Below, one piece after another: positions 2,100 to 62,827 of a stretch of 64,000 bases of DNA. Under the pieces are notes generated by a model. It searched no databases. It saw only the letters and a list, made by a program, of their open reading frames with translations, and was not told the origin of the DNA. Source of the stretch: Amycolatopsis australiensis (lineage in GTDB: Bacteria; Actinomycetota; Actinomycetes; Mycobacteriales; Pseudonocardiaceae); the NCBI RefSeq assembly GCF_900119165.1, contig NZ_FPJG01000006.1, forward strand, positions 8,160,001-8,224,000, given 5' to 3'. The position numbers were made by a program, and so were the translations under genes. Position 1 is the stretch's first letter. Each line of letters starts with the position of its first letter.

Positions 2100-2579
2100 G
2101 TGCCGCTCACCCTCACCGACTTCAACACCGCCGCCGCGGCCGACATCCGTCCGGTGCTGACGGCCTGTCTCGCCGTGCCGCGGTGGGTCGATGCCGTCGT
2201 CGACGGCCGTCCGTACGCCGACCTCGATTCGCTCAAGGCGGCCGCCGACCTGCCGCTGCGCGATGACGAGATCCGGCTGGCCATGGCCGCGCACCCGCGG
2301 ATCGGGGAAAAGCCGGCACAGCAGGGAACCGAAGCCGACTGGTCGCGTAACGAACAGTCCGGTGTGGACAACGCCGGCGCGTTCGCCGCCGCGAACGCCG
2401 AGTACGAAGCCAAGTTCGGGCACGTCTACCTCGTCTGCGCCAGCGGCCGCAGCGGCGACGAGCTGCTCGAGATCCTCAAGAGCCGGCTGGACAACGATCC
2501 CGCGACGGAACTGGCCGTCGCCGGGCGGGAGCTGCTCAAGATCGCCGCACTCCGGCTCGCCAAGGCGGTGACCGCGTGA
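2100..2579 (+). CDS. uraD: 2-oxo-4-hydroxy-4-carboxy-5-ureidoimidazoline decarboxylase
   Basis: Converts OHCU to S-allantoin, the third step from urate. The protein is 159 residues, normal for the family. The GTG at 2100 gives VPLTLTDFNTA and is preceded by GAGGAG. The catalytic-loop signature AAHPRIGEK places the conserved His at residue 65, and the central SGVDNAG and NAEYEAKFGHVYLVCASGR segments are typical. The stop overlaps the next start (GTGA, 4 nt), so translation with uraH is coupled. It is the first gene of a three-gene operon behind the promoter at 2041-2069. Confidence 0.95.
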   Translation: MPLTLTDFNTAAAADIRPVLTACLAVPRWVDAVVDGRPYADLDSLKAAADLPLRDDEIRLAMAAHPRIGEKPAQQGTEADWSRNEQSGVDNAGAFAAANAEYEAKFGHVYLVCASGRSGDELLEILKSRLDNDPATELAVAGRELLKIAALRLAKAVTA

Positions 2580-2893
2580 GCCTCGTGACGACGCACGTGC
2601 TCGACACGGCGAAAGGGCGCCCGGCGGCAGGGATCGCCGTCCGGTTCGAGACCGCCGCGGGGAAGCCGATCGCCGAAGGGCGCACCGACGACGACGGCCG
2701 CATCCGCGAGCTGGGCCCCGAGACCCTCGACCCGGGCGTCTACCGCCTGGTCTTCGACACCGGGGCCTACCTGGGCCCGGACGCCTTCTTCCCGGAAGTG
2801 GCGCTCACCTTCCGGATCACCGACGGCGCGTCGCACCACCACGTGCCGCTCCTGCTCAGCCCGTTCGCCTATTCGACCTACCGAGGGAGCTGA
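2576..2893 (+). CDS. uraH: 5-hydroxyisourate hydrolase (transthyretin-like)
   Basis: Hydrolyses 5-hydroxyisourate, the uricase product, to OHCU. At 105 residues it has the family length. The N-terminal TTHVLDTAKGRPA carries the conserved His near residue 7. The C-terminus ends in the diagnostic tetrapeptide YRGS at residues 102-105. The GTG start overlaps the uraD stop, and uricase begins 3 nt after the stop, so all three enzymes between urate and allantoin are made from one transcript. Confidence 0.97.
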   Translation: MSLVTTHVLDTAKGRPAAGIAVRFETAAGKPIAEGRTDDDGRIRELGPETLDPGVYRLVFDTGAYLGPDAFFPEVALTFRITDGASHHHVPLLLSPFAYSTYRGS

Positions 2894-2896
2894 ACC

Positions 2897-3778
2897 GTGG
2901 CCATCACCCTGGGCCCCAACCAGTACGGCAAGGCGGAGGTCCGCCTGGTGTCGGTGCGCCGCGACGGCCCCGTCCACCACCTGAAGGACCTGACCGTGTC
3001 GACGTCGCTGCGCGGCGAGCTGGCCGCGACGCACCTCACCGGCGACAACGCCGGCGTGCTCGCGACCGACACGCAGAAGAACACCGTGTACGCCTTCGCG
3101 AAGGAGGCGCCGGTCGGCGAGATCGAGGACTTCGGCCTGCGGCTGGCGCGGCACTTCACGTCCACGCAGGAGAACATCACCGGCGCGCGGATCAAGATCG
3201 ACGAGCACGGCTGGGACCGGATCACGGTCGGCGGCGAGCCGCACGACCACGCGTTCAGCCGCGCGGGCGACGAGCGGCGGACGACGGCGGTGACGATCCA
3301 GGACGGCCGCGCGTGGATCGTGTCCGGCGTCGACGGCCTGACGCTGCTCAAGTCGACGGGCTCGGAGTTCCACGGCTTCCCGCGCGACCAGTACACGACG
3401 CTGGCCGAGACCGACGACCGGATCCTCGCCACGGCCGTGACGGCGCGGTGGCGCTACCGGGGCGACGGCATCGACTGGGCGGAGAGCCACCGCGAAATCC
3501 GGCGGCTGATGCTGGAGACGTTCGCGACGAAGCACAGCCTTTCGCTGCAGCAGACGCTGTACGCGATGGGCGAGGCGGTGCTCGAGGCGCGCGGCGAGGT
3601 GGCGGAAGTACGGCTGTCGCTGCCGAACAAGCACCACTTCCTGGTGGATTTGAGCCCGTTCGGGCTGAAGAACGACAACGAGGTGTTCTACGCCGCGGAC
3701 CGGCCGTACGGACTGATCGAGGGCACGATCCTGCGCGACGACGCCGAGGACCCGGGCCCGGCGTGGGATCTGCACTGA
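2897..3778 (+). CDS. pucL: Urate oxidase (uricase, cofactor-free)
   Basis: Oxidises urate to 5-hydroxyisourate with O2 and no cofactor. It has 293 residues, normal for uricase. The general-base elements are visible: Lys12 in YGKAEVRLV and Thr57 in ATDTQKN. The NKHHFLVDL segment near residue 250 and the substrate loop around RWRYRGDGIDW are also typical. It begins with GTG three nucleotides after uraH. The B. subtilis PucL protein is a fusion with the decarboxylase; here uraD is separate. A 71-nt gap follows before a TetR gene. Confidence 0.96.
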   Translation: MAITLGPNQYGKAEVRLVSVRRDGPVHHLKDLTVSTSLRGELAATHLTGDNAGVLATDTQKNTVYAFAKEAPVGEIEDFGLRLARHFTSTQENITGARIKIDEHGWDRITVGGEPHDHAFSRAGDERRTTAVTIQDGRAWIVSGVDGLTLLKSTGSEFHGFPRDQYTTLAETDDRILATAVTARWRYRGDGIDWAESHREIRRLMLETFATKHSLSLQQTLYAMGEAVLEARGEVAEVRLSLPNKHHFLVDLSPFGLKNDNEVFYAADRPYGLIEGTILRDDAEDPGPAWDLH

Positions 3779-3815
3779 CCGGCCCCGCACGGAACTCCGG
3801 GCACGAGGAGCTTGA

Positions 3816-3827
3816 TAGAACGCTCTA
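3816..3827. promoter_or_regulatory. Putative TetR operator (autoregulation)
   Basis: TAGAACGCTCTA is a 12-bp near-perfect palindrome lying 22 nt before the GTG of the TetR gene. It overlaps a possible -35 (TTGATA, 3812-3817). A -10-like TATCCT at 3838-3843 is only 6 nt from the GTG at 3850, suggesting a leaderless message. The spacing between the two hexamers (20 nt) is long, so the exact promoter is uncertain. Confidence 0.45.
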
Positions 3828-3849
3828 CCAACTCGCGTATCCTCGACCC

Positions 3850-4434: not shown

Positions 4435-4534
4435 TCGGGAATCCAACACGAACCACCAAGATGGCGCTTGACCGCGCAGCAGTGGACACGGAAGCTGCTC
4501 TTCTCCTCCCCCACCGCCGTCGGTTGGAGCTGCC

Positions 4535-9696: not shown

Positions 9697-9700
<4 letters not shown>
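8360..9700 (-). CDS. 8-oxoguanine deaminase-like amidohydrolase
   Basis: A 446-residue zinc amidohydrolase of the ATZ/TRZ group. Metal ligands appear as THHHLYQ (His61-63), HTHLAET near residue 240, His in AHTIHL and the Asp of GADGAASNES near 320. THHHLYQ with the long AADHTLFEWL segment is typical of proteins annotated 8-oxoguanine deaminase, which convert 8-oxoguanine to urate; guanine-like substrates are also possible. It overlaps both neighbours by 4 nt, sitting between the iron-sulphur and molybdenum subunits of xanthine dehydrogenase. Its product would therefore enter the same pathway. Confidence 0.85.
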
Positions 9701-10154
<454 letters not shown>

Positions 10155-10164
<10 letters not shown>

Positions 10165-11018
10165 GCGCGCTCCCCCGTCCGGTGTTCGTCCCAGGCCCAG
10201 GTCAACGTTCGCCGCGCGAGTACCCCGAGCGCGTGCTTCCGATACGCGGCACTGCCGCGGACGTCGTCGATCGGCGACGCGGCTTCGGCCACCAGGTCGC
10301 CGAAGCGGCGCTTCAGGGAGTCCGGCAACGCCGGTGCGGACGTCCACGGCAGCTCGGCGGCGAGGAACTCCTCGGCCGCGCGAGCCCGTCGGGGGGTCGG
10401 CGCGGCGGACCCGATCGCGGCGCCGACCCGGCCCTCGCGCAGGCACAGCGCGAAGGAGCAGACCGCGATGACCATGGCGTTGCGCGTGCCGACCTTGGCG
10501 AACTGCTGCGGCCCGGCGTGCGCGGGCAGGTGGACGGCGGTGATCAGCTCGTCCGGCTCGAGGGCGTGGCGTTTCACGCCGACGTAGAACTCCTCCGCGC
10601 GGAGGAGCCGGGTCCCCCGGACGGAGGCGGCCTCGATCCGGGCGTCCAGGGCCAGGAGCACCGGGTGCGTGTCACCGGCGGGCGACGCGGCGCCGAGGTT
10701 GCCGCCGACCGTGCCGCGGTTGCGGATCTGGGGCGAGCCGACCGTGCGGGACGCCATGGCCAGCGCCGGGACGGATTCACCCAGTTCGGCGATCACCCGG
10801 GAATACGGCACGCCGGCGCCGAGCCGCACCGTGCCGTCCGATGTGGACCACTCCGTCAGCTCGGGGACCGTCGTCAGGTCCAGCAGGGCTTCGGGGCGTC
10901 GGTGGTCGAAGTTCAGCTCGACCATGACGTCGGTGCCGCCGGCGATCGGCACCGCGCCGGGCCGCTCGGCCTTCATGGCCAGTGCCTCGGCGAGCGTCGC
11001 GGGACGCAGGAACTCCAC
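10155..11018 (-). CDS. xdhA: Xanthine dehydrogenase, FAD-binding subunit
   Basis: A 287-residue FAD subunit (CoxM/XdhA type). FAD-contact motifs are PIAGGTDVMVELN (about residues 24-36) and the double-glycine stretch TVGGNLGAASPAGDT. First gene of the operon. The GTG start is preceded by AAGGAG at 6 nt. The longer in-frame extension to 11231 would run through the divergent promoter and lacks family similarity, so it is rejected. Upstream lies the regulatory region shared with the PucR gene. Confidence 0.92.
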
Positions 11019-11139: not shown

Positions 11140-12456
11140 ATGACGACCGTGAAAACTCTGCTGGGCCTGCCGGGGCTGCGGCTGCGGCCCCGGGCCGGGA
11201 GCGACCTGCTCGACCGGCCGGTGACGCGCATCTACGTGACGGAGCTGTCCGACCCCGGACGGTACCTGTCGGCCGGTGAACTCGTGCTGTCCGGGCTGCT
11301 CTGGTGGCGCGAGCCGGGCGACGCGGAGCCGTTCGTGGCCGCGCTGGCCCGCTCGGGCGCCGCGGCGTTGGCCGCGTCCGGCGCCGATTCCGGCGGGATC
11401 CCGGACGACGTCGTCGACGCCTGCGTCCGGCACCGGATCCCGCTGCTGGAGGTACCGGCCGACCTGTCGTTCTCGGTGATCACCGAGCAGGTGGTGCTGG
11501 CGCTGGCGGCCGCGTCCGACAGCGCGCGCAAACGTTTGCAGGCCGCTGCGGACGCCCCGGTGGAGACGCTGCTGGAGCGGGCCTCCGCGGAGCTGGGCCT
11601 GCCGTGCTGGGTGCTGTCGGGGTTCGGGCGGGTCGTCGCCGGGACCTCGCCGCTGCCGTCGCCGGGCGCCGACGTCGTCCGCCGGTACGCGGCTCGCGAG
11701 CCCGGGTCGTTGACCGTCGTCCCCGTCGAGGGGCGGCACGCGGTGCCGTGGCTGGTCCTCGTCGGCGGGCCGCTGAGCACCGCGCAGACGGAGCTGGCCG
11801 AGGAACTGGCCGGGCTGGTCGGTGTCACGCGGGCGCGGTCACCACGGCCTGAAGCGGAGTTGCCCGATGAAGCGCGCGTTGTCGCGTTGCGGACCGAAGG
11901 CAGCGAAGAAAGCGAAGACGTCCTACGGGAACTGCTGCCCGACGGGCTCCTGCTCGAGTCCGCCGGGGATACCGCGTACGCGGCGACGACGCTTCGGCCC
12001 TCTTCGACAGAGCTGTCCACAGTGGAGCCGCTGCTGCGCGCGAAGCGAATCCTGTGCGGTGTCAGCGACCCGGGCCCGCGAGCGGAGGCGTGGGAGTCGG
12101 CGCGGTACGCCCTGGAAGTGGCGTCCCGGCGGCGCATCACGGTGGTGGCGGCCGGGGAAGTCGGCGCACACGAGCTGCTGCTCGCCGGGGCTCCGGACGG
12201 GCTGCGCGCGGCGCTTCGCCGTCGCGTGCTCGGGCCGTTGCTGGACTACGACGCCGAGCAGCACGCGGACCTGGTGCACACGGTCCGGGTGTTCCTGGAG
12301 TGCTCGGGCTCGCCGACCCGGGCGGCGAAGGCGTTGCACGTCCACGTCAACACGCTGCGCTACCGCATCGGCCGCGCGGGCGAGCTGCTCGGCGCGGACC
12401 TGACGGAGTTCGCCGGCCAGCTCGACGTCTACCTCGCGTTGCGCATGGAGGAGTGA
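11140..12456 (+). CDS. pucR: PucR family transcriptional regulator
   Basis: A 438-residue regulator. Residues about 8-125 match the PucR N-terminal purine-catabolism domain (LLGLPGLRLRP then SGLLWWREPGD). The C-terminal 60 residues are the PucR-type HTH (HVHVNTLRYRIGRAGELLG near residues 395-415). In Bacillus, PucR activates purine-degradation genes on nitrogen limitation with allantoin-type effectors. The divergent arrangement with xdh strongly suggests xdh is its target. No ribosome site is seen before the ATG at 11140. A 27-nt in-frame extension from 11113 exists but adds no family sequence. Confidence 0.88.
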   Translation: MTTVKTLLGLPGLRLRPRAGSDLLDRPVTRIYVTELSDPGRYLSAGELVLSGLLWWREPGDAEPFVAALARSGAAALAASGADSGGIPDDVVDACVRHRIPLLEVPADLSFSVITEQVVLALAAASDSARKRLQAAADAPVETLLERASAELGLPCWVLSGFGRVVAGTSPLPSPGADVVRRYAAREPGSLTVVPVEGRHAVPWLVLVGGPLSTAQTELAEELAGLVGVTRARSPRPEAELPDEARVVALRTEGSEESEDVLRELLPDGLLLESAGDTAYAATTLRPSSTELSTVEPLLRAKRILCGVSDPGPRAEAWESARYALEVASRRRITVVAAGEVGAHELLLAGAPDGLRAALRRRVLGPLLDYDAEQHADLVHTVRVFLECSGSPTRAAKALHVHVNTLRYRIGRAGELLGADLTEFAGQLDVYLALRMEE

Positions 12457-13303: not shown

Positions 13304-14491
13304 TCAGTCTTCGCGGCGGGCGTACTTCTCCAGCTCCGGACGGCCGAACGGCAGCTCGCCCTCGTCCAGCGCCCCGCAGTCGAGGCCGCGCAGCAGGTAG
13401 ACCGCCAGCGCCTGCGCCGTCGCCGGTTCGTCCAGCACTCCTCCGGCCGTCTTCTCCGCGTACGCGCGCAGCCGCTCCACCGCCGCCGGAAAGCCTGAAC
13501 GGTAGAACGTGTACGTCGCCGCGAAGCGGGTCGGCAGCTGGTGCGGGTGCAGGTCCCAGCCCTGGTAGAAGCCGCGCTCCAGGGACCGGCGGACGAGGCG
13601 GAGGTGCTCCGCCCACGCCGACGGCAGCGCGTCACCGATCGGGAGGCGGTTGGTCGAGCCGTCCGACAGGCGGACGCCCGTGCCCGCCGCCGCCACCTGC
13701 ATGAGGCCCTTGGCCAGGTCCGCCGCCGGGTGCTCCATGCTCTGGTAGGCCGCCGCGATGCCCAGGCCCGCGCTGTAGTCGTAGGTCCCGTAGTGCAGGC
13801 CCGAGCACCGGCCGCCGGCCGCCTGCACGATCCGCGCCACCGACAGCGTGCCGTCCAGGTCCACAATGGACTGGGCGGTCTCGATCTGGACCTCGAAGCG
13901 CAGCGCACCGGCGGCGAGCCCGTACGCGGATTCCAGGTGTCCCAGCACTTCCGCGGCCACGGACACCTGCTCGACGGCGGTCACCTTCGGCAGCGTGACG
14001 ACGAATCCGGGCGGCAGCGGCCCGTTCTCCAGCAGGCCGGCGAGGAACAGGTCCAGGGTGCGGATCCCGCGCCGGCGTGTCGCCGCCTCGAAGCTCTTGA
14101 AGCGGATGCCCGTGAACGGTGTCCCGCCCGTGGTCGCCAGGGTCCGCCCGGCCGCCAGCGCGGCCGCGTCCTCGACGTCGTCCGGCACGCGGCCGTAGCC
14201 GTCCTCGAAGTCGATCCGCAGGTCCTCGATCGGCTCGGTCAGCAGCTTCGCCCGCACGCGCTCGTACACGCCGGCGTCGACCTCGAGGAGATCGCCGTGC
14301 TCGACGAAGACCCGCATCGCCTGCTTGCCCCAGTCGGCCACCAGGCGCGTCTTGTACCGCGACGCCGGGACGTAGACCGTGTGCACCGGCTGCCGTCCCG
14401 GCCGCTCCCCCGGGTACGACGCCGCGACGCGCGCGTCGGCCGCAGCCAGGCGCGCGTCGGCGGCGTCGTAGACGTCCTCGGGCAGGCGCAC
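13304..14491 (-). CDS. HpcH/HpaI aldolase-like protein (DUF6986 type)
   Basis: A 395-residue protein resembling CitE/HpcH TIM-barrel lyases: DLRIDFEDGYG, FVVTLPKV, RFEVQIETAQSI and GTYDYSAGLG are the barrel motifs with acidic metal ligands. It matches the actinobacterial family I know as DUF6986, whose reaction is undescribed to my knowledge. Its GTG shares one base with the malate synthase stop (TAGTG), so translation is tightly coupled. Since HpcH-type enzymes and malate synthase can both act on glyoxylate, a role in glyoxylate or purine-carbon disposal is plausible but unproven. The 13-bp motif GTCCACANNGGAC occurs inside at 13859. Confidence 0.75.
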   Translation of the reverse strand: MRLPEDVYDAADARLAAADARVAASYPGERPGRQPVHTVYVPASRYKTRLVADWGKQAMRVFVEHGDLLEVDAGVYERVRAKLLTEPIEDLRIDFEDGYGRVPDDVEDAAALAAGRTLATTGGTPFTGIRFKSFEAATRRRGIRTLDLFLAGLLENGPLPPGFVVTLPKVTAVEQVSVAAEVLGHLESAYGLAAGALRFEVQIETAQSIVDLDGTLSVARIVQAAGGRCSGLHYGTYDYSAGLGIAAAYQSMEHPAADLAKGLMQVAAAGTGVRLSDGSTNRLPIGDALPSAWAEHLRLVRRSLERGFYQGWDLHPHQLPTRFAATYTFYRSGFPAAVERLRAYAEKTAGGVLDEPATAQALAVYLLRGLDCGALDEGELPFGRPELEKYARRED

Positions 14492-22771: not shown

Positions 22772-23272
22772 ATGAAAAAGACGACGGTGGCGCTCGCGGC
22801 CGGTGCCCTGCTGGCCGGCGGCGCGGCGACGGCTTCGGCGACCCCCGCCCCGGCGAAGGTGCCGGACGCGGTCAAGGTGCCGGACGGCAACCGGCACCTG
22901 GTCACTTTCCACGGCGAAGGCGTGCAGATCTACGGCTGCGCGAACGGCGCGTGGACGCTGGTCCAGCCCGCGGCCGTGCTGTCGGAACACGGGAAGCCGG
23001 TGGCGCTGCACAGCAAGGGTCCGGTCTGGACGTCCACTGTGGACGGCAGCACGGTCGGCGCGGCGGCGGTGGCCAGTGCGCCACGGCCGGACGCGATCCC
23101 GCAGCTGCTGCTCAAGGCGGACCTCAACACCGGCGACGGCGTCTTCGGCAAGGTCACGTACATCCAGCGCCTCGCCACGCGCGGTGGCGTCGCTCCGGCG
23201 GGAAGCTGCCCGCCGGGCGCGCAGACGGCGGTCCGGTATTCGGCGGACTACGCCTTCTGGGTGGCCGGCTGA
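22772..23272 (+). CDS. Secreted DUF3455 family protein
   Basis: A 166-residue exported protein. The signal peptide covers residues 1-24 (KKTTVALAAGALLAGGAATASA, cleavage after ASA). The mature part matches DUF3455: GVQIYGCANGAWTLVQPAAVL, HSKGPVWTSTVDGS, PQLLLKADLNTGDGVFGKVTYIQR, TRGGVAPAGSC. It has two cysteines (in YGCAN and GSCPP). Function is undescribed. It contains one copy of the GTCCACANNGGAC-type motif (23032-23044) in an STVDG codon run. Confidence 0.85.
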   Translation: MKKTTVALAAGALLAGGAATASATPAPAKVPDAVKVPDGNRHLVTFHGEGVQIYGCANGAWTLVQPAAVLSEHGKPVALHSKGPVWTSTVDGSTVGAAAVASAPRPDAIPQLLLKADLNTGDGVFGKVTYIQRLATRGGVAPAGSCPPGAQTAVRYSADYAFWVAG

Positions 23273-23277
23273 CAAGC

Positions 23278-23359
23278 GCCCCAAGGCGACCTTGGTTGCG
23301 TCTGACGCACCGAAGGCCGCCTTGGGTGCGTCTCACGCACCGAAGGCCGCATTGGGGCG
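23278..23359. repeat. 30-bp tandem repeat with nested palindromes
   Basis: Two full units at 23290-23319 and 23320-23349 differ at only two positions, and are followed by a truncated third (23350-23359) and preceded by a degenerate partial unit. Each unit contains CCTTGG, GCGTC(T)(G/C)ACGC (palindromic) and ACCGAAGGCCG. The junctions form longer near-palindromes such as ACCGAAGGCCGCCTTGGGT. It is non-coding and sits directly after the DUF3455 stop. It may be a REP-like element or a bidirectional terminator. Confidence 0.75.
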
Positions 23360-23661: not shown

Positions 23662-26600
23662 TCAGCCGGCCGGGACCGGCTCCTCCGCGGCCGTGCGCAG
23701 GCGCTGCGAGATCACCTTCGTGATGCCGTCGCCCTGCATGCTCACGCCGTAGAGGGCGTCGGCGATCTCCATCGTCGGCTTCTGGTGGGTGATGATGATC
23801 AGCTGCGACGAGTCGCGCAGCTGCTCCAGCAGCCCGATCAGCCGGCGCATGTTGGTGTCGTCGAGCGCGGCCTCGACCTCGTCCATCACGTAGAACGGTG
23901 ACGGGCGGGCGCGGAAGATCGCGACCAGCATGCCCACCGCGACCAGCGACTTCTCGCCACCCGACAGCAGCGAAAGCCGCTTGACCTTCTTGCCCGGCGG
24001 GCGCGCCTCGACGTCGACGCCCGTGCTCAGCAGGTCGTCCGGCTCGGTGAGGACCATCCGGCCCTCGCCGCCGGGGAAGAGCACGCCGAACACGGTCTCG
24101 AACTCGCGGGCGACGTCCGCGTACGCCGACGTGAACACCTCCAGGATCTTCTCGTCGACCTGCTTGATCACCGACTCGAGGTCCTTGCGGGTCTCCTTGA
24201 GGTCTTCCAGCTGCGTGGAGAGGAACTTGTACCGCTCCTCCAGCGCCGCGAACTCCTCCAGCGCGAGCGGGTTCACCTTGCCCAGCAGGGAAAGATCCTT
24301 CTCGGCGCGCTTGGCGCGGCGGGCCTGGGTGTCGCGGTCGTACGGCATCGGCGGCGGCGGGGTGACGTCCTCGCCGCGGTTCTTGGCCGCCTCGTACTCG
24401 GCCATCTCGCCCGCGCTGGGCGGGACCGGGACGTCCGGGCCGTACTCGCGGACGAGGTCGTCGAGGCCGATGCCGAAGTCCTCGGCGATCTTGGCTTCCA
24501 GTGTCTCCAGCCGCAGCCGCTGCTCGGCGCGCAGGACCTCGTCGCGGTGCACGGCGTCGGTGAGCTTCTCCAGCTCGCCCGACAGCTCGCGGACCTTGGC
24601 GCGGACGCCGCTCAGTGCCTGCTCGCGGGACTGGCGGCGGGCCTGGACCTGGTCGCGTTCGGTGGCCGCGCGCTGCACCGAGTGTTCGATGCGCTCCAGC
24701 GCCAGCTCGCCCGCGTTGACGACGGCGTTGGCGATCTCGGCGCCGCGCTTGCGGGCCGCGGCGGCGCGCTCGGCGCGCTCGCGGGCCTGCTGCTCGGCGT
24801 GCGCGGCGCGGCGGAGCCCTTCGGCCTTGCCCGCGATGCTGCGCGCCCGCTCCTCGGCGGTGCGCTGCGCGAGCCGGGCCTCCATCTCCTCCTGCCGGAC
24901 GACGGCCAGCTCTTCGACGGCCTGGTCGCGCTCGGCGGTGTCCGGGTCGTCCTCGACCGGCTGCTCGGCGACGGCGGCGAGCCGTTCCTCCAGCTCCGCG
25001 AGCTGTGCCAGAGCCTGCTCGCGGCTCTGCTCGACCTTCGCGCGCTGGCCGCTGAGCCGTTCGACCTCGGCCTGGGCCTGCCGGACCGCCTGCTGCAGCC
25101 GGTTGAGCCGCTCCGAAGACCGGGCGCGCCGGACCTTCGCCTCGCCGAGCGCGTCCTTGGCCTGGGAAACCTCTTCGCGACGCGCCTGCTGTTCGGCGCG
25201 GGCGCCTTCCAGCTCGGCGGCGTACCGCTCCAGCGAGCGCTCGGCCGTGCGGAGCCGCTCCCCCGCCTCGTCGACGGCCGCCTGGACCTCGATCACGCTC
25301 TCGCGCTTGCCGGAGCCGCCGATCGCCCAGCGGGCGCCGAAGACGTCGCCTTCGGCGGTGACCGCCCGCACGTCCGGGTGCGCGGCCACCAGCTGCCGCG
25401 CCGCATCGAGGTCGCGGACCAGCGCCAGCTTGTCGAGCGCCTGCTCGACCGCGGCGCGCAGCGGCGGCGGCGCCGTGACGACCTCGCGGGCCCAGCGCGC
25501 GCCTTCGGGCAGCGCGGGCCACGCCGAAGTGTCCACAGTGGACTCGGGACTGCCGAGCAGGATGCCCGCGCGGCCCGAGTCGGTGTCCTTCAAGTACTTC
25601 AGCGCGCGCAACGCGTCTTCGCCGCCGGCCACGGCGACCGCGTCGGCGACCGGGCCGAGCGCCGCGGCCAGCGCGACCTCGTACCCCGGTTCGACGGTGA
25701 GCAGCGCGGCGACCGAGCCGAGCAGGCCCGGCAGCTCGTGCGACGCGCCGAGCAGGGCACCCGCGCCGTCCTTGCGCCGCAAGCCCATCGACAGCGCCTC
25801 GACGCGCGCCTTCTCCGACGCGATCTCGCGCTCGGCCGCGCGTTCCGCCTTGACCAGCTCTTCGACGCGCGCCTTGGCCGCGTTGTTGGCCTCGACGGCG
25901 CGGTCGTGGCGCTCCTGCAGCGCCGCGTCGTCGGACTCCTCTTCGCCGCCTTCGGCCTTGGCCAGCTCCAGCTCCTCGACGGCGATCTCGGCGCGCTCGG
26001 CGGCTTCCTCCAGCGAGACGCTGAGCCGGTCGATCTCGTCGGAGGTGGCGCCGTTCTTGCTGCGCAGCGCCTCGACCTGGCCGGTCAGCTTGGCCATGCC
26101 CTCGCGGCGGTCGGCGATCGCCCGGACGGCGGCCCAGTGCGCGCGCTCGGCGGCCTGGACGCGCTGTTCGAGGTCTTCGCGCCGCAACACGGTCTGCGCC
26201 AGCAGCTCCCGGGCCTCCATGACGGCCTCGTTGAGCTCCTCTTCCTGCTCGGCGACGCGTTCGGCTTCTTCGAGCAGCTCCTCGGGGTCACGGCCGCCGG
26301 TCGACGTCGAGACGTCGGCCGACAGGTGCCGCTGCCGCTCGACCGCCAGGCGGACGGTGCCGCGCAGGCGCTCGGCCAGCGCGGACAGCTTGTACCAGGT
26401 CTCCTGGGCGGTCTGCAGCAGCGGCGCGTCCTCGGCCAGCGACGCCTCCAGCTCGGCTTCTTCGGCGGAGACGATCTCGAGGTGCTGCTCGACCTCGGCA
26501 CGGCGCTGGCGGGCGGCCTTCTCGTCGGCCTCTTCGCGCGCGATGGCGTCCCGCTGGGTGACCAGGTCGTCGGCGAGCAGGCGCAGACGGGCGTCCCGCA

Positions 26601-30368: not shown

Positions 30369-31067
30369 CTAGATCTCGAAGCGGTAGCCCATGCCGGGTT
30401 CGGTGAGCAGGTGCCGGGGCCGTGACGGCTCCGGCTCCAGCTTGCGGCGCAGCTGGGCCAGGTACACCCGCAGGTAGTGGGACTCCGTCTCGTACGTCGG
30501 GCCCCAGACCTCGCGCAGCAGCTGCTTCTGCGCCACCAGGCGGCCGCGGTTGCGGACCAGCAGCTCCAGCACGCCCCACTCCGTCTTCGTCAGGTGGACC
30601 TCCACGCCGTCGTGGCGGCGGACCTTCTTCGCCGCCAAATCCACCGTGAACGACGACGTGTCCACCACCGCCTCCGCGCCCTCCGCGCCCGACACCGCCG
30701 AGCGGCGGACCGCCGCTCGGAGGCGGGCCAGCAGCTCGTCCATGCCGAACGGTTTCGTCACGTAGTCGTCCGCGCCGGCGTCGAGGGCCTGGACCTTGTC
30801 CGCCGAGTCGCCGCGGGCCGACAGCACGATGATCGGGACCGTCGTCCAGCCGCGCAGGCCCGCGATCACCTCCGTGCCGTCGAGGTCCGGCAGGCCCAGG
30901 TCGAGCACGACGACGTCCGGCTTCGTCTCGGCGACCGCCTTCAGCGCGGCCGTCCCGTCGTGCGCCGTGATCACCTTGTAGCCGCGGGCGTTCAGGTTGA
31001 TCCGCAGCGCCCGCACGATCTGCGGCTCGTCGTCCACCACCAGCACGGTGGCACCCCGGTCGCTCAT
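30369..31067 (-). CDS. kdpE: Response regulator KdpE
   Basis: The OmpR-type activator of kdpFABC. It has 232 residues: a receiver domain with phospho-acceptor Asp in VVVLDLGLPDLDG (near residue 52) and Lys in YVTKPFGMDELLAR, then a winged helix with LVAQKQLLREVWG and RVYLAQLRRKLE. It overlaps kdpD by 4 nt (ATGA). Last gene of the kdp operon; convergent with the monooxygenase gene 39 nt away. Confidence 0.95.
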   Translation of the reverse strand: MSDRGATVLVVDDEPQIVRALRINLNARGYKVITAHDGTAALKAVAETKPDVVVLDLGLPDLDGTEVIAGLRGWTTVPIIVLSARGDSADKVQALDAGADDYVTKPFGMDELLARLRAAVRRSAVSGAEGAEAVVDTSSFTVDLAAKKVRRHDGVEVHLTKTEWGVLELLVRNRGRLVAQKQLLREVWGPTYETESHYLRVYLAQLRRKLEPEPSRPRHLLTEPGMGYRFEI

Positions 31068-40607: not shown

Positions 40608-41399
40608 CCGTGACGTCGACGGCCACGCCACCTGCAACCGCACGTCGCTGAGCCCGTCGATCTCGCGGTAGGCGATGCCTTCGCGCGGGTAGCGGCGGGC
40701 CACCGACCTCGGGAGGAACGTCACCGCCTGGCCCAGCTCGACCAGCCGCAACGCCTCGGCGAGGTCCTTCGCCGGCGGGCCGAGCCGGGCGGGCGGCGGG
40801 TCGGCGAGCACGGTCCGGGGATCGCGGGCGCGGTAGTAGGCGTCGAGGCGGTCGTCGACGCCGGGCCACGTCACGGCCGGGCGGGCGAGCACTTCGCGCA
40901 GCGTCGCCGCTTCCCGGCCGCGCGGCTGGGCGGCGACGCGCGGCTCGGTGGTGACCGGCTCGACGTCCAGCCCGGTGCGGTCGAACGGCGCCGGGATCAG
41001 GGCGACGTCACCGCGGCCGTCGCGGAGCATGCGGGCGGCTTCGTCGCCGGTGGCGGCGAAGAGCAGGTCCGCCGGCTCGCCGAGGGCGGCGAGGATGCCG
41101 GGCAGGAGCCCGGCGTCACCGTCCGGTTTGGACACGACGACCAGGGCGCCGTTCCGCTGCGCCCGGCGTCTCGCGGCCTTCGCGGCTTCGACGGCGGCGC
41201 GGGCGTCCGGCAGCATCGCCGCGCCGGCCCGGGTGAGCGCCACGCTGCGGGTCGAACGGTCGAAGAGCGTGACGCCGAGTTCGCGTTCGAGCCCGGCGAC
41301 GGCCCGCGAAAGGGACGGCTGGGTCCGGCCGAGCCGGTCGGCGGCCCGGCCGAAGTGCAGTTCCTCGGCGACGGCGACGAAAGCCTCGAGGTCATTCAT
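40563..41399 (-). CDS. LysR family transcriptional regulator
   Basis: A 278-residue LysR protein. The N-terminal HTH is at residues 1-58 (MNDLEAFVAVAEELHFGRAA, SLSRAVAGLERELGVTLF). The effector-binding domain is somewhat short and ends LRVALR-like. The divergent target would be the SnoaL-like gene 70 nt upstream. It overlaps convergently with the 107-aa gene. Confidence 0.88.
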   Translation of the reverse strand: MNDLEAFVAVAEELHFGRAADRLGRTQPSLSRAVAGLERELGVTLFDRSTRSVALTRAGAAMLPDARAAVEAAKAARRRAQRNGALVVVSKPDGDAGLLPGILAALGEPADLLFAATGDEAARMLRDGRGDVALIPAPFDRTGLDVEPVTTEPRVAAQPRGREAATLREVLARPAVTWPGVDDRLDAYYRARDPRTVLADPPPARLGPPAKDLAEALRLVELGQAVTFLPRSVARRYPREGIAYREIDGLSDVRLQVAWPSTSRSPRVAAFVRTALRQ

Positions 41400-44016: not shown

Positions 44017-45054
44017 TCACGTGCCGCTCGGGCGCCGGCCCGCTTTCGGCCGGCTCGGAAACGGGGCGGTGGTCGCCCGCACCACCAGTGACGGGTGCAG
44101 CAGGTGCCGGACCGGCTCCGTGCGCTCCCCGCGGACGCGCTCGATCAGCGCCTCGAAGGCCAGCCGTCCCATCTCGGTGCGCGGCTGGTCCACTGTGGTC
44201 AGTGACAGGTGCCGCAGCGCCGCGAGTGACGTGTTGTCGTAGCCGACGACCGACACGTCCTCCGGCACGCGCAGCCCGGCTTCCTCCAGTGCCGAAATCG
44301 CGCCCACGGCGTTGAAGTCGTTGCCCGCCACCAGGCCGGTCGGCAGGTCCGCGCGCGGATACGCCGCCAGCAGCTCCCGCACGGCCTTCTCGCCACCGGT
44401 GTCGGTGTGCTCGCTGCGCACGACGATCGGCTCGAGGCCGTGCCGCCGCATCGCCGCCTGGAACCCGCGACGGCGCTGGGCCGCCCCGGCCGCGCCCCCG
44501 CCGTCGAGGTGCGCGATGCGCCGGTGCCCGAGCCCGACGAGGTGGTCGACGGCCAGCGCGGACCCCGCCTCGCCGTCATCGTTCACGGTGTCCACAGCGG
44601 ACACTCGCGAGGTCCGCGACACGAGGACCACCGGGCACTGGCGTGCCGCGGCTTCGATGGCCGACGCGGGCACGACCGGCGAGAGCAGGATGACTCCGGC
44701 CGGACGGAAGGAAAGCAGGCTGCGCAAGGCGTTCCGTTCGCGCGCGGGGCTGCGGCCGCCGGTGTTGAGGACGAGGTCGAAACCCGCCGCCTGCGCGGCC
44801 GCGTCCAGTCCCTCGACCACGTCGGCGAAGAACGCGTTGCGCAGGTCGTTGACCATCACCCCGAGCACCGTGGACGTCCGGCTGGCCAGCGACCGCGCCA
44901 TCACGTGCGGCTGGTAGCCGAGCTCTTCGGCCGCGCGCAGCACTGCCGCGCGGCGCGGGGCGGAGACCTTCGGTGAATTCCTCATCACCAGGGAGACCAG
45001 TGCGCGGGAAACTCCCGCCCGCGCGGCGACGTCCTCCATGGTCGGACGCACCAT
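44017..45054 (-). CDS. LacI family regulator of the inositol locus
   Basis: A 345-residue repressor. The HTH is at residues 4-25 (TMEDVAARAGVSRALVSLVM), followed by the hinge and a periplasmic-binding-like domain (VLGVMVNDLRNAFFADVVEGL, DNTSLAALRHLSLTTVDQPR). Divergent from the iol operon, with operator palindromes between. By position it represses that operon until inositol or a catabolite binds. Motif copies lie at 44188 (near match) and 44590 (exact). Confidence 0.9.
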   Translation of the reverse strand: MVRPTMEDVAARAGVSRALVSLVMRNSPKVSAPRRAAVLRAAEELGYQPHVMARSLASRTSTVLGVMVNDLRNAFFADVVEGLDAAAQAAGFDLVLNTGGRSPARERNALRSLLSFRPAGVILLSPVVPASAIEAAARQCPVVLVSRTSRVSAVDTVNDDGEAGSALAVDHLVGLGHRRIAHLDGGGAAGAAQRRRGFQAAMRRHGLEPIVVRSEHTDTGGEKAVRELLAAYPRADLPTGLVAGNDFNAVGAISALEEAGLRVPEDVSVVGYDNTSLAALRHLSLTTVDQPRTEMGRLAFEALIERVRGERTEPVRHLLHPSLVVRATTAPFPSRPKAGRRPSGT

Positions 45055-50692: not shown

Positions 50693-51579
50693 GCAAGCTG
50701 CACCGTCCACTCGGGACGCTGTCCGACGACGCCGACCCGGTCCGGCTCACCCCGGACAGCGCGGGCTGGACCTACACCGGCCTCCGGGTCCTGGCACTGG
50801 CCGCCGGCGAGACGCGGGTCCTGCACACCGGCGAGTTCGAGGCGTTCGTGCTGCCGCTTTCCGGCTCGGCGACGGTTCGCGTCGACGGTCAGGTCTTCGA
50901 GCTGACCGGACGCACGTCCGTCTTCACGCGGGTCACGGACTTCGCCTACGTCCCACGGGACGCCGAAGTCGAGTTGTCGACAGTGGACGGGCTGGAGGTC
51001 GCGGTGCCGATGGCGCGCTGCACGCGTCGCCTGTCGCCGGCGTACGGACCGGCGGAGGACGTGCCGGTCGAGGTCCGCGGCGCCGGGCAGGCGACGCGGC
51101 AGGTGACCAACTTCGGCGTGCCGGGAGTGTGGGACCACGCGGACAAGCTCAACGCGTGCGAGCTGATCACGCCGGGTGGCAACTGGTCGTCGTACCCGCC
51201 GCACAAGCACGACGAGGCGACCGGGTGCGAAGTCGTCAACGAGGAGATCTACTACTTCCGCATCGCCGGCCGCGACGGGGTGACGCCGTCCCGCGAGGGC
51301 TTCGGCCTGCACCGGACGTACACGGGCGACGGCGAGCTGGACGAGGACGTCGCCGTCCGCGACCACGACGTCTTCCTCGTCCCGCGCGGCTACCACGGCC
51401 CGTGCGTGGCCGCGCCGGGCTACCCCATGTACTACCTGAACGTCCTCGCCGGGCCGGCGGACGAGCGGTCGATGGCGTTCTGCGACGACCCGGCGCACAG
51501 CTGGGTCCGCGGCACGTGGGCGGCGCAGGAGCTTGACCCGCGGTGCCCGGTGACGAGTCATGAAGGGCGTGTGCGGTGA
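50689..51579 (+). CDS. iolB: 5-deoxy-glucuronate isomerase
   Basis: Converts 5-deoxy-D-glucuronate to 2-deoxy-5-keto-gluconate; 296 residues with two cupin domains. Metal-ligand region: SSYPPHKHDE and NEEIYYFRIAG, later DHDVFLVPRGYHGPC. GTG start, 4-nt overlap with the gene before and after. Confidence 0.94.
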   Translation: MSKLHRPLGTLSDDADPVRLTPDSAGWTYTGLRVLALAAGETRVLHTGEFEAFVLPLSGSATVRVDGQVFELTGRTSVFTRVTDFAYVPRDAEVELSTVDGLEVAVPMARCTRRLSPAYGPAEDVPVEVRGAGQATRQVTNFGVPGVWDHADKLNACELITPGGNWSSYPPHKHDEATGCEVVNEEIYYFRIAGRDGVTPSREGFGLHRTYTGDGELDEDVAVRDHDVFLVPRGYHGPCVAAPGYPMYYLNVLAGPADERSMAFCDDPAHSWVRGTWAAQELDPRCPVTSHEGRVR

Positions 51580-53480
51580 ACGACTTCAGGGGTCCGGGGG
51601 CAGCGTCCCCGGCCGGGGTGCGGGGGCCGGGCCCCCGCCGGACACAGCAGCTGACGACGGCTCAGGCGCTGGTCCGCTGGATCCTCGCGCAGCGTTCGGA
51701 AACCCTCGACGGCCGGGAAGTACCGCTCTTTCCGGGCGTCTTCGCGATCTTCGGGCACGGCAACGTCCTCGGCCTCGGGACGGCCCTGGAGGAACACCGC
51801 GGAGAGCTTCCCGTGTGGCGCGGGCACACCGAGCAGGGCATGGCCCTCGCGGCGGTCGGCTACGCGAAGGCGACGCACCGGCGGCAGGTCGGCGTGGTGA
51901 CGTCCTCGATCGGGCCGGGCGCGCTCAACACGGTCACCGCGGCCGGGGTGGCGCACGCGAACCGGCTGCCGGTGCTGCTGCTGCCGGGCGACACGTTCAC
52001 CAACCGGGCGCCGGACCCGGTGCTGCAGCAGATCGAGCCGTTCGGCGACGCGACCGCGACGGTCAACGACGCCTTTCGCGCGGTGTCGCGCTACTTCGAC
52101 CGGATCGGCAGGCCCGAGCAGCTGGTCGCGACGTTGCCGCAGGTCGCGCGGGTGCTCACGGACCCGGCCGACGCCGGGCCGGTGACACTGGCGCTGCCGC
52201 AGGACGTCCAGGCGGAGACGTACGACTTCCCGGACGCGTTGTTCGAGCCCGTGCTGCACCGGCCGCTGCGGCCGCGGCCGGACCGGCGTTCGGTCACCGA
52301 AGCGGCGGCGGTCCTGCGCGCGTCCCGGCGTCCGTTGCTCGTGCTCGGCGGGGGTGTCCGGTACTCGGGCGCCGGGCAGCGCGCGCTCGACTTCGCCGAG
52401 CGGCACGGGATTCCGCTGGTGGAGACGACGGCGGGCCGCACGCTGGTCCCGCACTCGCACCCGCTGCACGCGGGGCCGCTGGGCATCACGGGCTCGACGT
52501 CGGCGAACGCCGTCGCGGCTGCGGCGGACGTGGTCCTGGCGGTCGGGACGCGGCTGCAGGACTTCACGACGGCGTCCTGGACGGTCTTCTCCCCCGACGT
52601 CCGCCTGGTGGCGCTCAACGCGGCCCGGTTCGACGCGGTGAAGCACGGCGCGCTGTCGGTGGTCGGCGACGCCGACGCGGGCCTGACCGATCTCGCGGCC
52701 CAGCTGGAGAGCTGGCGGGTCGACCCGTCGTGGACGTCGCGGGCCGCGGCCGAGCGGGCTTCCTGGGACGCGCACGTCGGCTCGCTCCGGTCGGCGCCGG
52801 GCCCGGTCCCGTCGTACGCGCAGGTCGTCGGGGTGGTGAACGACCTGTCGGCGCCGGACGACTACGTCATGACGGCGTCCGGCGGGCTGCCGGGCGAGCT
52901 GATCGGCGGCTGGCGCGGGTCCGGCTCGGTCTCGATGGACGTCGAGTACGGGTTTTCGTGCATGGGGTACGAGCTGTCGGGTGCGTGGGGCGCGGCGATC
53001 GCGTGGCCGGGCCTGGTGACCACACTTCTGGGTGACGGTTCGTACCTGATGCTGAACTCGGAACTGTTCTCGGCGGCGTTCGCGGGCCACCCGTTCGTCG
53101 CGGTGGTGTGCGACAACGACGGGTACGCCGTGATCGCCCGCCTCCAGGAGGGCCAGGGCGGGAAGCCGTTCAACAACTTCTACGCCGACTGCACGACTTC
53201 GCACGATTCACCGCCGCGCGTCGACTTCGCACGGCACGCGGAGTCACTGGGGTGCGTGGTGTTCCGCGCGTCCACAGTGGACTCACTCCGGTCGGCGTAT
53301 GCCGCGGCACGGGAAGCCGCGGTGACCGAGCGGCGGCCGGCGGTGGTCGTGGTGCCGACACAGCCGTCGGCGTGGACCGAAGCGGGCGCGTGGTGGGAGG
53401 TCGGGGTGCCGGAGCACCTCGCGGGCCGGGACGAGTACGAGCGCGGGAAGAGCGGACAGGTCCGTTACCTGCGCTCCTGA
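51576..53480 (+). CDS. iolD: THcHDO hydrolase (ThDP-dependent)
   Basis: Opens the ring of trihydroxycyclohexane-1,2-dione to 5-deoxy-glucuronate. It has 634 residues with the three domains of ThDP enzymes: the Pyr domain with catalytic Glu in RGHTEQGMALAAVGYAK, a central domain, and the PP domain GDGSYLMLNSELFSA (cofactor-binding GDGSY). Starts with GTG inside the iolB stop; ends 13 nt from the convergent TolB-like gene. The 13-bp motif is at 53270. Confidence 0.94.
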   Translation: MNDFRGPGAASPAGVRGPGPRRTQQLTTAQALVRWILAQRSETLDGREVPLFPGVFAIFGHGNVLGLGTALEEHRGELPVWRGHTEQGMALAAVGYAKATHRRQVGVVTSSIGPGALNTVTAAGVAHANRLPVLLLPGDTFTNRAPDPVLQQIEPFGDATATVNDAFRAVSRYFDRIGRPEQLVATLPQVARVLTDPADAGPVTLALPQDVQAETYDFPDALFEPVLHRPLRPRPDRRSVTEAAAVLRASRRPLLVLGGGVRYSGAGQRALDFAERHGIPLVETTAGRTLVPHSHPLHAGPLGITGSTSANAVAAAADVVLAVGTRLQDFTTASWTVFSPDVRLVALNAARFDAVKHGALSVVGDADAGLTDLAAQLESWRVDPSWTSRAAAERASWDAHVGSLRSAPGPVPSYAQVVGVVNDLSAPDDYVMTASGGLPGELIGGWRGSGSVSMDVEYGFSCMGYELSGAWGAAIAWPGLVTTLLGDGSYLMLNSELFSAAFAGHPFVAVVCDNDGYAVIARLQEGQGGKPFNNFYADCTTSHDSPPRVDFARHAESLGCVVFRASTVDSLRSAYAAAREAAVTERRPAVVVVPTQPSAWTEAGAWWEVGVPEHLAGRDEYERGKSGQVRYLRS

Positions 53481-55670: not shown

Positions 55671-55681
55671 GCCCGCGTCTC

Positions 55682-57389: not shown

Positions 57390-57456
57390 GACGTGTCCGG
57401 CCATTGAATCGGTCAAGAGGGTGAGCTTCGGCTGCTTTCCGCTGGTCAGCACCCGT

Positions 57457-57497: not shown

Positions 57498-57669
57498 CCC
57501 GCCTCCGCCGATCTTGTCGGTGGCGGCCGGTAGCATGGAGACCGGGGGCAGCGCCCATCGCTGCGCGCCGATTCCTCTTGCACTGCAACGGAATCACGTC
57601 CGTACAGTTCACTCTTTCCAGCGATGGTGTTCGCACACTTGTTCGGTTAGCTTCAGATGTATGACCCGC

Positions 57670-61129: not shown

Positions 61130-61876
61130 CTACTTGCGCAGAGCGCGAACGATCGCCACCACCCCGGCCACCGCCGCGATCGCGACCAGCACCGGCGCCA
61201 GCCGCTTCAGCACCGACTGCCCGGCGTAATCGAGGAGGTCGATCGCTTCCGTCTCCGGGGCCGCCGGAACGCTGCGCAGCGGCGGGCGCTCCGCTGTCTC
61301 CTTCGGTGCCGTGTTGATCTCCGGGGTCGTCGGGGCCGGCTTGACCGCCGGTTCCGGCTTTGCCACCGGCTCTGCCGTGGCCGTCGGCTCCGGTGCCGGT
61401 TTCTCGGCCGCCGGTGCGGGGGCCGGTGTGGCCGCGGGCGCCAATTTGCCCGACAGGCAGCCCGCGAACGTGTCCAGGATCTTGCCGCCCACCTCGCTGA
61501 TCAGGCCGCGGCCGAACTGGGCCGGCTTGCCCGTGATCGCCAGGTCCGTCGCCACCGCGCCGTGGGTTCCGCCGTCGCTCTCCGTCAGCGTCAGCGTCAC
61601 CGTTGCCGCCGCCGTGCCCGCTCCGCGGGCGTCCTTGCCCGATGCCTTGATCGTGACCTTGTGCGCCGCTTCGTCCTTCTCCAGGAACTCGCCGTTGCCC
61701 TTGTACAGCAGGGAAATCGGGCCGAGCTTGACCTTCACCGTCCCGCTGAACTTGTCCCCTTCGACCTTCGTCAGCGTGGCGCCCGGCATGCACGGGGCGA
61801 CGCGCTCGGGGTCGACGACCGCCTGCCAGACCTCGCCGATCGGTGCCGGGACGGTGAATTCGTGGTCGAGCCGCAC
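61130..61876 (-). CDS. CoxG-like SRPBCC protein with C-terminal anchor
   Basis: A 248-residue protein: CoxG/SRPBCC domain (residues 1-145: FTVPAPIGEVWQAVVDPERVAPCMPGATL, ITGKPAQFGRGLISEVGGKILDTFAGCL), an Ala/Pro/Glu-rich linker (150-205) and a C-terminal membrane helix (about 225-245) with basic tail. CoxG of CO dehydrogenase clusters helps tether the enzyme or its assembly to the membrane. AAGGAGG precedes the GTG. Confidence 0.85.
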   Translation of the reverse strand: MRLDHEFTVPAPIGEVWQAVVDPERVAPCMPGATLTKVEGDKFSGTVKVKLGPISLLYKGNGEFLEKDEAAHKVTIKASGKDARGAGTAAATVTLTLTESDGGTHGAVATDLAITGKPAQFGRGLISEVGGKILDTFAGCLSGKLAPAATPAPAPAAEKPAPEPTATAEPVAKPEPAVKPAPTTPEINTAPKETAERPPLRSVPAAPETEAIDLLDYAGQSVLKRLAPVLVAIAAVAGVVAIVRALRK

Positions 61877-61931
61877 GGCCGACCTCCTTCCTCGAGACGA
61901 GCCTGCCGCACCCCACCCTAGCCGCACCCGG

Positions 61932-61967
61932 CGCTCGTGCCCCGGCGGCGAAGCCGGGGCACGAGCG
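61932..61967 (-). terminator. Strong hairpin terminator after coxM
   Basis: CGCTCGTGCCCCGGC (61932-61946) pairs perfectly over 15 bp with GCCGGGGCACGAGCG (61953-61967) around the loop GGCGAA. It lies 5 nt after the coxM-like stop on the minus strand. It has no U tract, as is common in actinomycetes. It separates or attenuates expression of the CoxG-like gene. Confidence 0.8.
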
Positions 61968-61972
61968 GTGTG

Positions 61973-62827
61973 TCAGGCTCCGGCCGCCGCCGCGATCGCG
62001 CGGCCCGTCAGCACCTTCGCCAGGTGACGGCGGTATTCGACGTCGGCGTTGCCGTCGACCGGCGGGTTCGTCCCTTCCGCCGCGTGGGACGCCGCCGCGC
62101 TGATCGACTCGGCCGACGCCTGCACCCCGACCAGGGCCGCTTCGACGCCCGTGGCGCGGACCGGCGTCGAGCCCATGTTGGTCAGCGCGACCCGCGCCTC
62201 CTCGATCACCCCGGCCTCGGTACGGACGGTGACCGCGACCGCGACCATCGACCACGCCTGGGCGACACGGTTGAACTTCTCGTAGTGCGCCCGCCACCCC
62301 GTGTGCTTGGGGACGCGGACCTCGACGAGCAGCTCGTCCGGCCCCAGCGCCGTGGTGAACAGGTCCTGGAAGAACTCCGCGGCCGGCACCGTCCGGCGCA
62401 CGGACGGCCCGGCCACCACCAGCGCAGCGTCCAGCGCCAGCACCGGCGCGAGGAGGTCCCCGGCCGGGTCGGCGTGCGAGATCGCGCCGCCGAGCGTGCC
62501 GCGGTGGCGGATCTGCGGGTCGGCGACCGTGTCCGTCGCTTCCTTGAGCAAGGCCGCGTGCGAAGCGACCAGCGGGTCGCGCTGGACCTCGTAGTGCGTG
62601 GTCATCGCGCCGATCACCAGCGCGTCGCCGTCCTCGCGCACGCCGCGCAGCTCCGGGATGCGCCCGAGGTCGACCAGCGTCGTCGGCGCGGCCAGCCGCA
62701 TCCGCAGCACCGGCAGCAGGCTCTGCCCGCCGGCCAGCACCTTGGCGTCCTCGCCCGCCGACGCCAGCGCCTGCACCGCTTCGTCCACTGTGGACGGGCG
62801 GACGTAGTCGAAGGAAGCCGGGATCAC
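61973..62827 (-). CDS. Molybdenum hydroxylase FAD subunit (CoxM-like)
   Basis: A 284-residue FAD-binding subunit: SFDYVRPSTVDEAVQAL, KVLAGGQSLLPVLRMRLA (FAD site) and TLGGAISHADPAGDLLAPVLAL. It overlaps the catalytic subunit gene (GTGA) and is followed by a strong hairpin. Similar to CoxM of aerobic CO dehydrogenase; the true substrate is not decided. A 13-bp motif lies at 62783. Confidence 0.9.
   Translation of the reverse strand: MIPASFDYVRPSTVDEAVQALASAGEDAKVLAGGQSLLPVLRMRLAAPTTLVDLGRIPELRGVREDGDALVIGAMTTHYEVQRDPLVASHAALLKEATDTVADPQIRHRGTLGGAISHADPAGDLLAPVLALDAALVVAGPSVRRTVPAAEFFQDLFTTALGPDELLVEVRVPKHTGWRAHYEKFNRVAQAWSMVAVAVTVRTEAGVIEEARVALTNMGSTPVRATGVEAALVGVQASAESISAAASHAAEGTNPPVDGNADVEYRRHLAKVLTGRAIAAAAGA

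Follow-up and report, generated by a model that had tools for sequence, protein, structure and literature searches.

The stretch of DNA analysed here, referred to as the window, comprises 64,000 nucleotides (C6:8160001-8224000) of a 9.31-Mb Amycolatopsis genome whose SMC protein is 96% identical to that of Amycolatopsis bullii and 91% identical to that of A. saalfeldensis, the closest named relatives. Dispersed through the genes of the window are ten exact copies of a 13-bp motif, GTCCACANNGGAC, all of which had been reported in the original prediction and are present where it placed them. The first, GTCCACACCGGAC at 2357–2369 (− strand), lies in an OHCU decarboxylase gene (2100–2579, +), and is followed by GTCCACAAAGGAC at 9886–9898 (+) in a [2Fe-2S] subunit gene (9697–10164, −) and by GTCCACATCGGAC at 10836–10848 (−) in the gene for an FAD-binding molybdopterin dehydrogenase subunit (10155–11018, −). 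Three more are GTCCACAATGGAC at 13859–13871 (+) in a DUF6986 gene (13304–14491, −), GTCCACATTGGAC at 31475–31487 (+) in a kdpD-like gene (31064–33601, −), and GTCCACAGCGGAC at 44590–44602 (+) in a gene with a periplasmic-binding/LacI-type domain (44017–44943, −). The other four are copies of one perfect 13-bp palindrome, GTCCACAGTGGAC, found at 23032–23044 (−) in a DUF3455 gene (22772–23272, +), at 25531–25543 (+) in smc (23662–27264, −), at 53270–53282 (+) in the gene for a thiamine-pyrophosphate enzyme (51618–53480, +), and at 62783–62795 (−) in another gene for an FAD-binding molybdopterin dehydrogenase subunit (61973–62827, −). A near-perfect palindrome with one outer mismatch, TGTCCACAGTGGAg, is located at 12015–12027 (+) in a PucR-type regulator gene (11140–12456, +), and variants centred on W (A or T, as opposed to S, G or C) occur at 40138–40150 (−, GTCCACTTCGGAC), 41121–41133 (−, GTCCAAACCGGAC) and 50705–50717 (+, GTCCACTCGGGAC).

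All ten exact matches fall within called genes and in one register, with TCC opening a codon. The second codons are GGT, TTT, ACA, ATT, ACT, ACT, AAT, GCT, ACA and ACA, as originally listed; since the pattern itself fixes the last base of this codon, the A/T ending is not independent evidence. The expectation of well under one chance match per window holds, as 100 dinucleotide shuffles of the window gave a mean of 0.08 copies of GTCCACANNGGAC and a maximum of 1. Allowing one mismatch yields 26 matches, against 1.74 expected. The window is also rich in the motif by the standard of its own genome, with 10 exact copies where the genome rate predicts 3.9.

Across the 9.31 Mb there are 572 exact copies (279 forward and 293 reverse, or 61 per Mb), and the reversed pattern has none. 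The codon controls used an even sample of 120 stretches of 20 kb which, together with the window, comes to 2.464 Mb and contains 146 exact sites; its genes were called with a script of our own based on codon usage (2229 genes, 86.8% coding, leaving about 13% non-coding). When synonymous codons are permuted inside each gene (30 shuffles, over 2.14 Mb of coding sequence from the sample), 2.57 exact sites remain where 127 are observed, and 6.0 where the wider pattern GTCCAMWNNGGAC has 265, perfect palindromes being counted on both strands. The observation withstands this control and also a second one based on peptides, both of which the original prediction had named as possible refutations. Among 299 S-x-V-D peptides in the sample, the middle codon ends in A or T in 125 of the 150 coded as G-TCC-x-GTG-GAC and in 31 of the 149 coded otherwise (Fisher P = 7e-29), so that the peptide is not equally A/T-ended without the motif. 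The single register seen in the window is less strict elsewhere, being shared by 107 of the 127 intragenic sample sites, with 20 in the other two registers. The six combinations of register and strand hold 14, 3, 29, 1, 2 and 78 sites where 0.70, 0.07, 0.30, 0.03, 0.30 and 1.17 are expected, three of them containing just 1–3 sites each. Because all six lie above expectation, neither the peptide nor the codon context drives the motif, and the codon-context effect that had been offered as an explanation falls away.

The sequence is better described as an A/T-centred palindrome of 13–15 bp, with the optimum yGTCCAC-W-GTGGACr, than as GTCCACANNGGAC. When all 5-base arms with gaps of 0–9 are compared between coding DNA and its codon-shuffled counterpart, GTCCA-N3-TGGAC and TCCAC-N1-GTGGA rank at the top. 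Spacing of the half-sites is fixed: GTCCAC-N1-GTGGAC occurs 40 times against 3.6 expected, and the forms with N0 and N2–N9 occur 0 or 1 time each in coding DNA. So is the nature of the centre, with 194 W-centred copies (GTCCACWNNGGAC) against 4.5 expected (43-fold) and 40 S-centred copies against 27 (1.5-fold). Even the loose core TCCNNWNNGGA is found 424 times when W-centred, against 72 expected, while its S-centred form is below expectation (416 vs 516); extrapolating from these loose-core counts, we estimate that roughly 1500 excess sites may exist per genome. The perfect palindrome is enriched 180- to 400-fold in coding DNA, and GTCCACWGTGGAC is present 36 times against 0.2. The half-sites behave additively, in that when one GTCCAC half is present the other half may vary, preferring AC inside and G outside. 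Deviations, where tolerated, often fall on the two terminal bases, and most one-step neighbours are enriched. Two-fold symmetry, fixed spacing and graded half-sites are the features of a site for a dimeric protein, and all three are found in the sequence.

We aligned two regions of the window to 29 and 20 genomes of the genus; of the eight sites they contain, six have a central base at a synonymous wobble position with sufficient aligned relatives for scoring. Among relatives that keep the amino acid, and leaving out those with insertions nearby, 108 of 113 comparisons show A or T at the central base; for 96 control codons, which are other A/T-ending codons in the same genes, the figure is 800 of 1977 (Mann-Whitney P = 1.1e-4). 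With the insertion-bearing relatives retained, the counts are 115 of 121 and 849 of 2103. From one relative to another the centre may switch from A to T or back. At the 12015 site it is A or T in all 27 aligned genomes, even where Thr (ACA/ACT) has been replaced by Ile (ATT); the outer mismatch of this site is common to the aligned genomes, and the full GTCC...GGAC is found in none of them. The 9886 site still matches GTCCNNWNNGGAC in 24 of the 29 aligned Amycolatopsis genomes. At the 23032 site the centre is C in A. bullii and A/T in A. saalfeldensis, and the smc site at 25531 is identical in both of these species, carries one mismatch in Prauserella and is lost in A. arida. Because the aligned genomes are related, the test is indicative, and suggests that the A/T centre is under purifying selection.

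Sites of the wider pattern are spread along the whole chromosome at about 10 per 100 kb (99 per Mb) with near-random spacing, and are present in every 0.5-Mb bin. With parS at 1.006 Mb and a sign change in the guanine-cytosine (GC) skew near 5 Mb, there is no strand polarity in the sample (72 forward and 74 reverse, and 30 of each between 1.0 and 5.0 Mb) and no origin-to-terminus gradient (Spearman rho of 0.04 with distance from parS, P = 0.67, 120 stretches). Of the 146 exact sample sites, 127 are wholly intragenic, 4 cross a gene edge and 15 are wholly intergenic, so that the intragenic placement of all ten window copies does not extend to every site of the genome. This intergenic share, where about 13% of the sequence is non-coding, gives no sign of concentration at promoters, and the position within genes is near uniform. 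No sites are found in genes whose third-position GC is below 0.85 (44 kb), nor in the 100 kb of chromosomal stretches below 69% GC, where 9.7 are expected with masked bases left out (P = 6e-5). Two further contigs, C1 (72.8 kb) and C2 (105.9 kb), are likely to be extrachromosomal elements. C1 carries a second ParB-domain protein, and an N6/N4 DNA methylase is the sole Pfam match among eight open frames scanned in C2.

The motif is present throughout the genus, with 137–1114 copies in each of the 60 genomes searched (our own included). Within the family (249 genomes) counts range from 0 to 1244, and one genus (g68) has 0–5 per genome; the highest count in this sample belongs to a genome of another Pseudonocardiaceae genus (G107, genus g35), with 1244 exact sites in 6.6 Mb. 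Among 40 named genomes picked from 80 loci, copies number 151–650 in Amycolatopsis, 274 in Prauserella, 291 in a Pseudonocardiaceae metagenome-assembled genome, 413 in Kibdelosporangium, 850 in Virgisporangium, 322 and 389 in Actinokineospora, 246 in Saccharothrix, 192 in Saccharomonospora, and 40 and 211 in Pseudonocardia. Intermediate counts are seen in Mangrovihabitans (46), Plantactinospora (38), Glycomyces (30), Nucisporomicrobium (29) and Catellatospora (22). The remaining 22 have 0–7 copies, including Micromonospora (7), Rhodococcus (3 and 3), Nocardia (2 and 5), Mycobacterium (2), Streptomyces (3–7) and Nocardioides (4). Among the Micromonosporaceae, to which Virgisporangium belongs, at least 100 copies are present in 34 of 121 genomes. 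Elsewhere in the order three families are positive (f5 with 84–590, f9 with 26 and 273, f12 with 68 and 95) and the genomes searched from the others have at most 18, while in the class sample (394 genomes) the maximum, besides our own genome and two of the same family, is a background level of 14. On this distribution the motif looks like an old trait that may have been lost repeatedly, with repeated gain as the alternative. The on/off pattern across related genomes also enables gene-content profiling for a putative binder. At one Virgisporangium locus (L293, 1482–3013) a run of short called frames of about 160–270 bases adjoins a perfect site.

The motif also occurs in phages. Two perfect 15-mers searched in viral contigs returned 87 and 69 stretches, giving 155 loci, of which 125 have no further W-centred site; over the 1.33 Mb of the whole set, further sites number 51 with a W centre and 9 with an S centre. 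One contig carries tape-measure and head genes, and its head protein led to 20 loci. The ten closest of these (head protein at least 91% identical, query contig included) contain 33 W-centred and 1 S-centred sites in 144 kb, about twice the host density of 10.1 W-centred sites per 100 kb under the same definition, although one of the ten holds none. The ten other related loci (head protein 56–74% identical) have zero sites in 145 kb. Of the 10 loci of the clade, 9 have a site upstream of the head gene and 8 have another within it; as near relatives, these loci are not independent. The 50 kb from a cultured Actinoplanes phage contain two sites, a weak one with a W centre and one with an S centre. 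The phage region L435:10236-14265 (IMGVR_UViG_3300044446_000019) has six W-centred sites, of which two immediately precede start codons, together with a related palindrome, CCCTCCACTGTGGAGGG. The idea that phage sites track tRNA genes was dropped, as ARAGORN finds no tRNA at this locus. The phage clade amounts to a natural experiment on the function that the site has for a replicon.

Other palindromes in the genome behave differently or are rarer. TGCGT-N3-ACGCA and AAGGC-N1-GCCTT, which are also enriched, proved to belong to intergenic repeats resembling repetitive extragenic palindromic (REP) elements, with 75 units in 2.46 Mb and none in called genes; in the window, REP-like intergenic hairpin repeats occupy 23297–23340, for example CTTSGGTGCGTNNNACGCACCSAAG adjoining AAGGCNGCCTT. 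A rarer intragenic palindrome built like the motif over 13 bp, CGAAG-N3-CTTCG, occurs 14 times in sampled coding DNA against 0.32 after codon shuffling, and one copy lies at window position 7917. With other gaps from 0 to 7 its arms come closer to the expected counts; N4 (30 vs 17.8) and N6 (3 vs 0.56) deviate most. The smc-flanking loci of motif-free taxa form a small set seemingly dominated by orthologous sequence, which makes it uninformative on alternative palindromes.

From the palindrome, its A/T centre, its excess over codon-shuffled genes, the synonymous conservation in two regions, the lack of polarity and the distribution among lineages and phages, we infer, with about even confidence, that the motif may be the operator-like site of a homodimeric, sequence-specific DNA-binding protein acting across the whole chromosome, whose role would most likely be architectural or in chromosome maintenance. 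A homodimer that reads a central bend indirectly would be expected to select sites of this kind, which are two-fold symmetric, fixed in spacing, additive in their half-sites and indifferent to A or T at the centre. Such a protein would contact two yGTCCAC half-sites meeting on one A/T base pair, and this pair would probably be read through DNA shape (bending) and not by direct contact. Sites of graded strength, most of them intragenic, would be retained wherever coding constraints permit, with clear ones about every 10 kb. The likely role would be in nucleoid organisation, topological domains or the traffic of SMC or the replisome, and not in the control of single genes, given that the sites are placed regardless of promoters, which argues against a regulon. 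The site of a nucleoid, replication or segregation protein, one of the possibilities raised at the outset, is still the best putative reading of the sequence; its companions, a DnaA box, codon context and a modification target, do badly. Somewhat more tentatively, the whole may represent a novel system of filamentous actinobacteria, in which a dimeric protein would use roughly a thousand conserved palindromes per genome, most of them within genes. The system would be ancient in the part of the tree that holds the Pseudonocardiaceae and Micromonosporaceae, would have been lost repeatedly, and would also act on the genomes of invading phages, some of which would be evolving sites. Few sequence-specific chromosome-organising systems have been described in actinobacteria, and none is known to have hundreds of conserved intragenic palindromes; a search limited to open-licence PubMed Central (PMC) papers found no description of the motif. 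The 15-bp oligonucleotide TGTCCACAGTGGACA, paired with the single central substitution control TGTCCACGGTGGACA, is a ready probe that should pull out the binder.

Several observations weigh against the preferred reading. The search for a candidate gave no match: the ParB-domain family does not co-vary with the motif across 19 genomes, all of which, motif-bearing or motif-free, have a strong ParB match, with extra weaker ones in both groups. YbaB/EbfC was rejected as binder because it shows no co-variation across 34 genomes, with one copy in the motif-bearing G080 and twelve in the motif-free Nocardia G348. An autoregulated promoter was sought among the perfect 15-mers of our own genome and Virgisporangium (23, of which 16 were examined); 13 of the 16 lie within genes, leaving three with genes beside them. 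Nothing in the way of domains emerges that would establish an architectural role, the counts per 20 kb being slightly more uneven than random placement gives (variance/mean of 1.28), and there is a slight shortage at gene starts (11 of 199 sites in the first tenth, Kolmogorov-Smirnov P = 0.053). The 10836 site matches GTCCNNWNNGGAC in 18 of 29 aligned genomes and is lost in 11, and the conservation test itself draws on six codons, two regions and related genomes. Finally, contigs C1 and C2 are depleted, with 2 sites against 10.9 expected in 110 of their 179 kb (P = 0.0013), so not every replicon needs them.

This same depletion, and that of the low-GC stretches, would fit the main rival, a self-recognition mark, which we regard as improbable. 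Here a host defence, nuclease or silencing protein would take palindrome-bearing DNA as self, and the chromosome and adapted phages exploiting the mark would gain it while newly acquired DNA would lack it, as the phage clade with its 33 W-centred sites to 1 and its doubled density might suggest beside ten related loci with none. However, any replicon that benefits from a binding protein would show the same pattern, and neither the sparse sites of the Actinoplanes phage nor the 125 viral loci lacking a further site favour a mark.

Slightly less probable is a palindrome of the HIP1 type (HIP, highly iterated palindrome), which a repair bias coupled to a methyltransferase would create and maintain, without selection for binding. 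Being palindromic, GC-rich, iterated mostly within genes, patchy among lineages and tolerant of deviations at its end bases, the motif does resemble the HIPs of cyanobacteria as described in PMC4390886. A word of 13–15 bp with additive half-sites is nonetheless unlike what a methyltransferase would recognise, the majority of one-step neighbours are enriched and not consumed, and the density of 61 exact or 99 wider sites per Mb is far from the 1000–2000 per Mb given for HIPs in PMC4390886. The length and the graded, half-site-by-half-site preference likewise leave a modification target, as proposed originally, insufficient as the sole explanation.

We hold it equally doubtful that these are operators of a global transcription factor with intragenic binding as well, such as an IclR-type relative of NdgR. 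The chromatin immunoprecipitation sequencing motif of Streptomyces NdgR (PMC4340878) is a 15-bp imperfect palindrome with the same half-sites. Its gap is 3, against 1 here, and the corresponding form GTCCACNNNGTGGAC occurs once in coding DNA against 2.16 expected, so that NdgR itself was rejected as binder for its wrong spacing; nor do the sites show a promoter bias. A DNA uptake or transfer signal in conjugation or transformation is very unlikely: hundreds of dispersed intragenic copies, genus-wide, lineage-specific and scarce in likely new DNA, would suit it, but it does not predict presence in phages. Known uptake sequences are, moreover, denser and non-palindromic. An S-x-V-D coding context favoured in itself, to which the register common to most intragenic sites might point, has next to no probability left, given an excess in every register on both strands, intergenic copies, and a site kept across an amino-acid change.

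Set beside known systems, the preferred reading of a dimer-bound chromosomal site has partial counterparts. The actinobacterial DnaA box has the consensus TTGTCCACA and shares GTCCACA with the motif, which also needs a second half-site and an A/T centre. As TTGTCCACA alone occurs 9 times against 2.96 expected in coding DNA (3-fold), small beside the 180- to 400-fold of the palindrome, the suggested link of the core to the DnaA box is not supported. REP elements are intergenic, unlike the sample sites, most of which lie wholly within genes. The sites of MatP (matS), Noc and SlmA are dimer-type palindromes spread through genes, tens in number, that serve chromosome organisation. The motif is likewise palindromic and dimer-type, and presumably serves upkeep of the chromosome, but it numbers hundreds of sites with neither restriction to the terminus nor exclusion from it; its density is 10.0 per 100 kb at both 5.0–5.5 and 5.5–6.0 Mb, against a mean of 9.9, and across the 19 genomes no extra ParB-domain protein tracks it, as Noc, a ParB-family clamp, would. 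The absence of a terminus pattern argues against MatP-, Noc- or SlmA-like use. FtsK orienting polar sequences (KOPS), Chi and architecture imparting sequences (AIMS) are also many short motifs kept in genes, and are strand-biased (PMC5993296 and PMC4786541), whereas the motif is palindromic and unpolarised, which argues against KOPS- and Chi-like use; it also lacks the rise towards the terminus that marks AIMS. The cyanobacterial HIP1 and alternate HIPs (PMC4390886) come closest in behaviour, as GC-rich, iterated, overrepresented and dispersed palindromes present or absent by lineage; the motif differs in being longer (13–15 bp), in needing an A/T centre, in its graded half-sites, and in being more than tenfold sparser. 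In sequence, the nearest relative is the operator of Streptomyces NdgR (PMC4340878), which likewise sets GTCCAC/GTGGAC half-sites in an odd-centred palindrome, at 19 loci as against the hundreds of mostly intragenic sites described here.

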